Source of the DNA: Spirochaetota bacterium
GTDB lineage: Bacteria > Spirochaetota > UBA4802 > UBA5368
NCBI GenBank assembly: GCA_004297825.1
Contig: SCSX01000047.1
Span: 1 to 64,000, forward strand
Reading direction: 5' to 3'
Length of the DNA stretch: 64,000 nt
A program made the position numbers and the translations under genes. Below the pieces are notes generated by a model, which did no database searches, was not told the origin of the DNA, and saw only the letters and a program-made list of their open reading frames with translations. Numbering within the stretch: position 1 is the stretch's first letter; every line of letters starts with the position of its first letter. Shown piece after piece: positions 37,790 through 40,093 of this stretch.

Positions 37790-38269
37790 CTAGAGGGAGG
37801 CGGTGCGGCGGTGGATTTTCGTGTTTCCTCCGCCTTTCAAGGTGGGTGTGGGGTCTCCCCAGTACATTTCCCAGCAAAGGATGCCATTTTCGACCCTTTG
37901 ACCGATTGTATAGTGGGTATACGCTGTATTGTTATGCTCCTCCTCAGCCTCATTGAGCAGATCATCCAAGTACCGCTCCGTCGCAATCGTGATTAGAAAG
38001 GAGACCGAGAACTTGGAGAGCCTACGAATATCCGAAAAGAACTCATATTCATCCTTCTTAAAAGAAATCCCCACACAACGCCACTGTTTCTCAGGATTGC
38101 GCTCCTGATACCTCACCAGGGTGAATCCGCCCTGGAATCTCCCGATATTGTCCATGATCCGCATGAGAAGCTTCACGATCACCTCGCGGCGGGGTTTTCC
38201 CAATCGCTCGGCGGCAGCGTTCAGGGTGTGAAGAATATCGGGCCTCATGTTCGCGCTTGTTCGCAGCAT
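37790..38269 (-). CDS. Unknown 159-residue protein, family copy 1
   Basis: The ATG at 38269 has AGGGG upstream. The product shares its length and about half its residues with the protein at 51689: MLRTS(A/I)NM, RFQGGFTLV(R/K)YQ, LSKFSV/LSRFSV, A(T)ERYL/ATKRYL, (T/A)IGQR and GILCWE(M/F)YWGD. The N-terminal half looks helical and could be a ribbon-helix-helix-like DNA-binding fold, but I see no decisive motif. It resembles the layout of small Leptospira proteins of unknown function (DUF1564), which I could not confirm. It is divergent from the trpB leader. Confidence 0.75.
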   Translation of the reverse strand: MLRTSANMRPDILHTLNAAAERLGKPRREVIVKLLMRIMDNIGRFQGGFTLVRYQERNPEKQWRCVGISFKKDEYEFFSDIRRLSKFSVSFLITIATERYLDDLLNEAEEEHNNTAYTHYTIGQRVENGILCWEMYWGDPTPTLKGGGNTKIHRRTASL

Positions 38270-38384: not shown

Positions 38385-38413
38385 TTGACAATCCCGGGGC
38401 ATGTCTTTACAGT
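38385..38413 (+). promoter_or_regulatory. Promoter of the trp leader
   Basis: A perfect -35 TTGACA (38385-38390), a 17-base spacer and -10 TACAGT (38408-38413) predict a start near 38420, about 22 bases before the leader-peptide ATG. Confidence 0.75.
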
Positions 38414-38442
38414 ACTCACACAAAGGATTCACGTAGAGCGCG

Positions 38443-38529
38443 ATGAATATACCTGTTAACAACATTTTTTCTCAGGTTTGGGGGTGGCGCACCGGACATA
38501 AAGATCCGTGTGCTTCCCGGCGCGTTTAG
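38443..38529 (+). CDS. trpL: Trp leader peptide
   Basis: A 28-codon reading frame starts 22 bases after the predicted transcription start and reads MNIPVNNIFSQVWGW at its beginning, with two Trp codons at 38479-38481 and 38485-38487. The stop is at 38527-38529. GAG lies a few bases before the ATG, a modest ribosome site. In ribosome-mediated attenuation, stalling at these codons when charged tRNA-Trp is scarce would change the fold of the following RNA. The next gene is tryptophan synthase beta. Confidence 0.7.
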   Translation: MNIPVNNIFSQVWGWRTGHKDPCASRRV

Positions 38530-38588
38530 GCGAAACGTCAGAATTGAATGCCAAAGGGCTGCGGATTAAAAAACCGCAGCCCTTTTTT
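38482..38588 (+). promoter_or_regulatory. Tryptophan attenuator
   Basis: Region 1 (38482-38495) overlaps the Trp codons and pairs with region 2 (38506-38518) through about 12 pairs around a 10-base loop. Region 3 (38553-38564) pairs with region 4 (38574-38585) in a perfect 12-bp stem followed by T, giving a strong terminator. Region 2 can pair weakly with region 3 (about six pairs with an internal loop), the expected antiterminator. The layout matches the enteric trp leader in kind, not in sequence. Confidence 0.65.
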
Positions 38589-38590
38589 AT
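38553..38590 (+). terminator. Intrinsic terminator in the trpB leader
   Basis: AAAGGGCTGCGG and CCGCAGCCCTTT form a 12-bp stem with a nine-base A-rich loop, followed by TTTTTTAT counting the end of the stem. It lies 75 bases before trpB, so it must be read through for trpB expression. Confidence 0.9.
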
Positions 38591-38664
38591 TGCCAGGTGA
38601 ATGTGCTCGGGGAATACGGCAATTTGGCGCCCCGGGAGAAAATATCAGGGAAAAGGAGGAGTCT

Positions 38665-40026
38665 ATGCCTAAAGAATCGTACAAGATATTGTTACCCGAA
38701 AAGGAAATGCCCCGGCAGTGGTATAACGTTATTCCGGACCTGCCCAAGCCCTTGAACCCGCCGTACAGTCCCCAGACCGGAAAGCCCGTAACGCCCCAGG
38801 AACTGGCGGTGCTTTTTCCTATGGGTCTCCTGGAACAGGAGATGAGCGGCGAACGTTACATCGATATCCCCGAGGAGGTCCTGGAAATATACAGGCTATG
38901 GAGGCCCTCGCCGCTTTTCAGGGCGCGTCGCCTGGAGCAGAAGCTGGGTACTCCCGCGAAGATCTATTACAAGTACGAGGGTGTGTCCCCCGCGGGCAGT
39001 CACAAGCTCAACACCGCAGTACCGCAGGCATATTACAACAAGAAAGAGGGCATAACCAAAATCGCAACGGAAACGGGCGCCGGCCAGTGGGGGAGCGCCC
39101 TTGCCCTTGCGTGCGACATGTTCGGCATCGATCTCCATGTTTTCATGGTCAAGGTAAGCTATGACCAGAAACCATACCGGAAATTCATGATGGAGACGTG
39201 GGGGGCGAAGGTTACGCCGAGTCCCAGTCCCCTCACGAACGTGGGCCGCGGCCTGCTCGCGGCGAATCCGGACAATCCGGGGAGCCTCGGCATCGCCATA
39301 AGCGAGGCGGTCGAGGTGGCGGCCATGAACGCCGACACGCACTATGCCCTGGGAAGCGTACTCAACCACGTGTGCCTCCACCAGACGATTATCGGGCTCG
39401 AGACGAAAAAGCAGCTTGCAATGGTCGACGACTATCCGGATGTCGTGATAGCCTGTGCGGGCGGGGGCTCGAATTTTGCCGGGATAGGCTTTCCGTTCGT
39501 CCAGGACAAGATCAACGGCAAGAAGGTCCGCATCCTCGCCGTGGAGCCCTCGGCATGTCCCAGCCTCACCAAGGGCAAGTTCGTGTACGATTACGGCGAC
39601 GAGGCGAAGATGGCGCCCATCGTGGAAATGTACACGCTGGGCCACGGATTCATCCCGCCCACGATCCACGCGGGAGGACTGCGCTACCACGGCATGTCAC
39701 CTCTCGTGAGCTTGCTTAAACACGAGAACGTGGTGGAAGCGATTTCCGTGCCGCAGAAGGGGTGCTTCGAGGCCGCGATACTTTTCTCGCGGACAGAAGG
39801 AATCATTCCGGCGCCGGAGTCGTCGCACGCGATTCGCGCCGCCATCGACGAGGCTATCAGGGCGAAGGAGGAAGGGAAGGAACGTACCATCGTCTTCAAC
39901 CTGAGCGGTCACGGTCATTTCGACCTTGCGTCGTACGATATGTTCCTGGCCGGAAAACTCGAGGATTACGAGTATCCCCGGGAGCTGATCGAGCAGGCTC
40001 TGAAAAACGTGCCGAATATGGGGTAA
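38665..40026 (+). CDS. trpB: Tryptophan synthase beta chain, TrpB2 type
   Basis: A 453-residue PLP enzyme with the long N-terminal extension ([20 protein letters not shown]) characteristic of TrpB2. The PLP lysine is Lys114 in AGSHKLNTA, and ETGAGQWG and [15 protein letters not shown] are conserved. It joins indole (or indole-glycerol-derived indole) with serine to give tryptophan. TrpB2 often occurs without an adjacent trpA, as here. RBS AAGGAGGA lies five bases before the ATG. Expression is probably governed by the leader at 38443-38588. The gene ends just before the palindrome at 40037. Confidence 0.94.
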
Positions 40027-40036
40027 GGATCGGCTG

Positions 40037-40093
40037 CGGAATGCGGTACGGTAGAGACGTCCCGTCGGGACGTCTCTACCGTACCGCATTCCG
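40037..40093. terminator. Long perfect palindrome at the trpB/ferredoxin convergent junction
   Basis: Arms of 27 bp (40037-40063 and 40067-40093) with a 3-base loop, followed by GTTTTACC on the plus side. It overlaps the last codons of the convergent ferredoxin gene. It may terminate transcription from both directions, but its length and perfection are unusual for a terminator and suggest an inserted repeat. Confidence 0.75.

Follow-up and report, generated by a model that had tools for sequence, protein, structure and literature searches.

A probable ribosome-mediated tryptophan attenuator precedes a stand-alone trpB2 gene in Spirochaetota

The window (the whole 64,000-nucleotide stretch of contig SCSX01000047.1 that was analysed, from a Spirochaetota bacterium) carries the gene of a stand-alone tryptophan synthase beta chain 2, trpB2, and immediately upstream of it 280 bases (38385–38664) in which a promoter, a leader frame, a hairpin and an intrinsic terminator follow one another in that order. 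The first-pass annotation had located a promoter, a 28-codon frame with a Trp-Gly-Trp run, a hairpin and a terminator here, correctly in each case. The features of the locus are as follows.

38385–38413, + strand: sigma-70-type promoter, TTGACA-17-TACAGT, matching the consensus at 10 of 12 positions
38443–38529, + strand: leader peptide frame of 28 codons plus stop, MNIPVNNIFSQVWGWRTGHKDPCASRRV, whose Trp cluster and tail are kept in 13 leaders
38479–38487, + strand: putative regulatory Trp-Gly-Trp codons, TGG GGG TGG, codons 13–15 of the leader frame
38482 to about 38518–38520, + strand: 1:2 (anti-antiterminator) hairpin, which overlaps the Trp codons, recognised by its shuffle z-score and pair conservation
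38503–38515, + strand: region 2, the 5′ strand of the antiterminator, placed by mask folds and comparison
38556–38567, + strand: region 3, the shared strand, which pairs either with region 2 or with the 3′ arm of the terminator, placed in the same way
38553–38587, + strand: intrinsic terminator with a 12-bp stem, a 9-nt loop and a T run to about 38587, recognised by its shuffle z-score and pair conservation
38665–40026, + strand: trpB2, stand-alone tryptophan synthase beta chain 2, 453 residues (NF009057, TIGR01415, PF00291)

The TTGACA box of the promoter occupies 38385–38390 and is followed by a 17-nt spacer and the TACAGT box, which ends at 38413, which puts the expected transcription start near 38420. 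The leaders of relatives have a TTGACA at a comparable upstream position. The leader frame opens with an ATG at 38443 and closes with a TAG at 38527–38529; its ribosome-binding site is weak, with no clear Shine-Dalgarno sequence, and the start codon varies among relatives. The two Trp codons (38479–38481 and 38485–38487) correspond to TGG TGG TGG or a longer run in most of the relatives' leaders. Compared with dinucleotide shuffles, the 1:2 hairpin (−20.2 kcal/mol, z = −4.2) and the terminator (−22 kcal/mol, z = −6.1) are both unusually stable, and the entire leader folds with z = −3.3. The trpB2 ATG at 38665 is preceded at a short distance by AAGGAGGAG.

The trpB2 product scores above the curated cut-offs of both TrpB2 (COG1350) models, with 750 bits for NF009057 (cut-off 366) and 650 bits for TIGR01415 (cut-off 519), and reaches 172 bits with the ordinary TrpB model TIGR00263 (cut-off 392). 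The gene stands apart from trpA, and trpCFB1A lies on another contig. Right after trpB2 there is a perfect long palindrome (40042–40088) containing GTAGAGACGTCCCG-T-CGGGACGTCTCTAC, which occurs once in the window and in none of the other loci compared; it may serve as the terminator of trpB2 or be a dispersed repeat. On the other side, adjoining the trpB2 promoter, the minus strand encodes a protein of about 160 residues (37790–38269) with 52 matching places in its own genome. Many of these copies are whole and many are cut at contig ends, as in a large paralogous family, and one is found just past trpA on contig C60. The protein matches no Pfam family above the cut-off and shows a weak likeness to VirD1 (E = 0.016).

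TrpB2 was searched for in the family of the window (f1, eight genomes), in GTDB representatives and in the order (46 genomes), and a covariance model of the leader was run against 393 Spirochaetota genomes. The leader precedes trpB2 in all eight f1 genomes, in all four genomes of family f2 that have trpB2 and in the single genome of family f7, 13 leaders that all come from metagenome-assembled genomes (MAGs). Every strong match of the model in the 393 genomes (above 60 bits) stands before trpB2, and the f7 leader reaches 62 bits with a model built from f1 and f2 alone. Outside the order the matches in this set are weak, and those inspected are ordinary terminators. A second weak match in the genome of the window (contig C10) was likewise set aside as a terminator right after an unrelated gene. 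In locus L008, a run of N at 1392–1502 within trpB2 of genome G007 is flanked on both sides by the same short stretch and looks like an assembly gap, not a broken gene.

The leader peptides (VWGWRTGHKDPCA, AWWWRNGHKYPCA, AWWWRTGHRYPGA, AWWWCFGHRYPGV, IWWWWRQDNIYPGA and AWGWRGGSHHPRA, for example) show what is retained. Clustered Trp codons, ranging from WGW to WWWW, are present in all 13 leaders from the three families. The tail after the Trp run reads RxGHxYPxA in f1, RQDNIYPGA in f2 and RGGSHHPRA in f7. In the RNA, 99% of the terminator pairs are kept over the 13 leaders, with two-sided changes at three positions, and 85% of the pairs of the 1:2 stem are kept, with a one-base slip in f2.

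The antiterminator is formed by GAUCCGUG-U-GCUU (38503–38515) and GGGCUGCGGAUU (38556–38567), in which 38503–38510 and 38512–38515 pair with 38556–38567, making 12 bp with a single bulged U. This is a better helix than the pairing of about six bp with an internal loop that had been considered the weak point of the first-pass annotation, but significance in the window alone is lacking: five of the 12 pairs are G-U or similarly weak, and the duplex is no better than chance (p = 0.23 against shuffled spacers; z = −0.8). What makes the window's antiterminator convincing is solely that its relatives share the pairing at a like place. All 13 leaders have a 2:3 pairing in a common register, located right behind the Trp codons, and in six relatives it is unlikely to arise by chance (p = 0.0025–0.014 in L004, L009, L012, L102, L011 and L013); the helix is longer in relatives such as L004 (p = 0.003) and L102 (p = 0.004). 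Over the alignment, 90% of the antiterminator pairs are kept, compared to 25–59% for slid registers. Two-sided changes occur at three pairs, one of which appears as UA, CG or GU. Compensatory changes of the kind proposed as a check are thus present in the terminator and the antiterminator, although the signal of the latter is modest against letter shuffles. Since the core of the 2:3 helix is invariant, most of its pairs yield no covariation, as expected of a strand that needs to pair in two ways.

The leaders were also folded with a ribosome mask, as the first-pass annotation had proposed. All 13 leaders adopt the 2:3 antiterminator when the ribosome sits on the last Trp codon, a further 12 bases are masked and the polymerase has just cleared region 3; when the ribosome is moved to the stop codon, all 13 form the terminator. 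At equilibrium, the unmasked RNA of several relatives favours 2:3 over 1:2, so the 1:2 hairpin would have to win kinetically; termination without translation in those relatives would depend on 1:2 forming first.

Very probably, then, trpB2 is under classical transcription attenuation, with a translating ribosome as the sensor of charged tRNA-Trp. We favour this reading because of the promoter, the conserved Trp frame, the mutually exclusive stems, the position before trpB2 and the exclusion of TrpR described below; together with the mask folds, they support the attenuation logic first suggested for this lone trpB2. The leader has the Trp-codon frame, the terminator between frame and gene, the exclusive antiterminator and the 1:2 hairpin of a classical attenuator, and the gene downstream belongs to the Trp pathway, with the qualification that the physiological role of TrpB2 is debated. 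A shortage of Trp-tRNA would make the first ribosome stall on the Trp codons (38479–38487), where it would cover the 5′ arm of the 1:2 hairpin and leave region 2 (38503–38515) available for pairing with region 3 (38556–38567); no terminator would form and the polymerase would enter trpB2. When tryptophan is plentiful, the ribosome would reach the stop codon at 38527. As this codon lies beyond region 2, a ribosome finishing the peptide would cover region 2 directly, the terminator (38553–38587) would form and transcription would end. That the leader is translated, that ribosomes stall on it, that transcription terminates and that tryptophan governs the outcome is what we infer from the sequence. 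TrpB2 itself would make tryptophan, with free indole as its probable substrate, since the genome also has trpA-trpB1.

Three other explanations of the leader have to be weighed. The element might be a constitutive terminator or a short RNA gene in which the Trp frame is accidental, with trpB2 expressed by leakage or from another promoter. The strength of the terminator, the weak ribosome-binding site at the leader start and the lack of significance of the window's own antiterminator would all fit, but 13 genomes from three families conserve the Trp cluster, the frame, the stems and the placement upstream of trpB2, and a fixed rule that requires a Trp-cluster frame plus a terminator gives 0% in shuffles for the Spirochaetota group. 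This explanation is very unlikely. Two hairpins with an alternative pairing in front of a biosynthetic gene would also suit a metabolite riboswitch, a T-box or a TRAP-like protein-binding leader that senses tryptophan or tRNA without translation, and one Tepidanaerobacteraceae MAG does have a T-box (RF00230) upstream of trpB2 (L037, 2504–2832). The window, however, has no T-box signature and no match to the RF00230 covariance model; no Rfam family matches it at the gathering level and none credibly at E up to 5. Nor would a sensor of this kind require a frame rich in Trp codons, the feature of the leader that is conserved best, and we regard such a sensor as highly improbable.

A rhizobial trp leader RNA and its peptide reportedly act in trans, and the f1 peptide tail RxGHxYPxA is kept beyond the Trp run, but a leader whose RNA or peptide acts mainly on other genes, with the control of trpB2 secondary, is scarcely to be expected here: RNA pairing of region 2, which encodes the tail, accounts for the conservation of these residues, the tail differs in f2 and f7, and the leader always stands immediately before trpB2.

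The attenuator reading also agrees with the layout of the rest of the genome, where a different contig carries the full trpEGDCFB1A operon (gene names are from gene order and matches). The trpE of this operon has a second Trp leader upstream, unlike the trpB2 leader in sequence and made up of a promoter, the frame MNGKTVHTISNSDAAGVRFYWFWWTTSTVFA and a pair of terminators. This leader (L155, contig C60, upstream of trpE at 80064) encodes FYWFWW and has its two terminators in tandem, an arrangement that is also seen before trpE in several relatives. Trp leaders are found upstream of trpE in many genomes of the order. Because the genome's own trpE has a Trp leader too, trpB2 can be counted as part of the tryptophan regulon; it appears to be controlled along with the main trp operon, yet separately.

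The sister families f3, f5 and f6 lack the trpB2 leader, and in 17 of their genomes a TrpR-family gene lies directly upstream of trpB2. Within the order, 36 genomes have trpB2. TrpR is missing from all 13 that carry the attenuator and present in 22 of the 23 that do not, counts that are inflated by shared descent, the events not being independent. TrpR adjoins trpB2 in one Margulisbacteria MAG (L015) as well. A tree in which the attenuator-bearing TrpB2 proteins form one clade was rejected (AU p = 1e-5). A single clade for all TrpB2 proteins of the order except one long row survives the test (p = 0.085), and f7 is basal to the TrpR-linked group. The attenuator, shared by three families, is probably ancestral to the order, which answers in part the earlier question of whether it evolved here or was kept. 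The simplest history is an ancestral attenuator that was then replaced by TrpR in f3, f5 and f6; transfer of the leader is the alternative.

Ribosome-mediated attenuation is among the best-known RNA controls of bacteria. The leader described here resembles that of E. coli trpL (RF00513) in its short frame with tandem Trp codons, its 1:2, 2:3 and 3:4 stems and its intrinsic terminator before the gene. It differs in preceding a lone trpB2 instead of trpE, in having its stop codon beyond region 2 and in belonging to another phylum, and the RF00513 covariance model does not match it, whether at the gathering threshold or with E relaxed to 5. In Actinobacteria, trp attenuators were predicted before trpB2A of Corynebacterium diphtheriae and trpS2 of Streptomyces avermitilis (PMC1262725). 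Compared on their general plan, these are also of the classical Trp type and stand before a second trp locus or trpS, but the name trpB2 there denotes a second trpB copy in an operon with trpA. The trpB motif SRC-39-1 of Firmicutes and Fusobacteria (PMC11109978) has a hairpin, a possible antiterminator arm and a terminator and is sometimes located before trpB; it is set apart by its description, since it mostly precedes an ABC transporter gene and the text of the paper mentions no Trp leader frame. Control of trp genes by TrpR, as in E. coli, likewise responds to tryptophan and shares the target trpB2 in the sister families, but TrpR is a DNA-binding repressor, not an RNA, and none of the order's attenuator genomes has it. 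A search of the open literature found no description of a ribosome-mediated Trp attenuator upstream of a trpB2 of this type, nor of one in Spirochaetota. The mechanism is known; its occurrence before this gene and in this phylum, and the swap between TrpR and attenuator, appear to be undescribed.

Trp leaders before lone trpB2 genes are not confined to Spirochaetota. The fixed rule, applied to trpB2 upstream regions with shuffles and reverse complements as controls (background 0–0.4% and 0, respectively), finds a Trp leader with a terminator in nine of 27 upstream regions from the class of a Desulfarculaceae MAG and in 12 of 30 from the class of a Caldithrix MAG. A small class that includes a groundwater Desulfobacterales MAG (L041, L050, L252–L254) has Trp leaders further upstream of trpB2. 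In these loci and L063, an NWxWWNN leader lies about 250–390 bases 5′ of trpB2 and is accompanied by a 12–13-bp antiterminator and two tandem terminators. The leaders of the other classes are unrelated in sequence to that of Spirochaetota, and mask folds of four of them (L020, L041, L050 and L057) give antiterminators. Their presence before lone trpB2 genes adds to the case for attenuation in the window. On balance, we lean towards the view that stand-alone trpB2 genes form a tryptophan-regulated class over several phyla, that attenuators have been placed before them more than once (in Spirochaetota, in the classes of the Desulfarculaceae and Caldithrix MAGs and in the smaller class of the Desulfobacterales MAG) and that attenuator and TrpR have been swapped within a single Spirochaetota order.

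Apart from those of Geobacteraceae, TrpB2 genes are described as located outside the trp operon (PMC2700814, PMC1854888), and their role there is debated, with indole rescue and serine deamination as the two proposals (PMC1854888, PMC2700814). The present case bears on the purpose of TrpB2. The replacement of TrpR and an RNA attenuator by one another before the same gene, within one order, would be a clean natural case of regulator replacement. A switch that responds to charged tRNA-Trp, kept before trpB2 across families and recurring in other phyla, would be genetic evidence that tryptophan is the product that matters. The presence of the same switch or of TrpR in relatives, together with similar switches in other phyla, suggests that TrpB2 really makes tryptophan; if the wider view is true, TrpB2_o would be a physiological producer of tryptophan rather than, for example, a serine deaminase.
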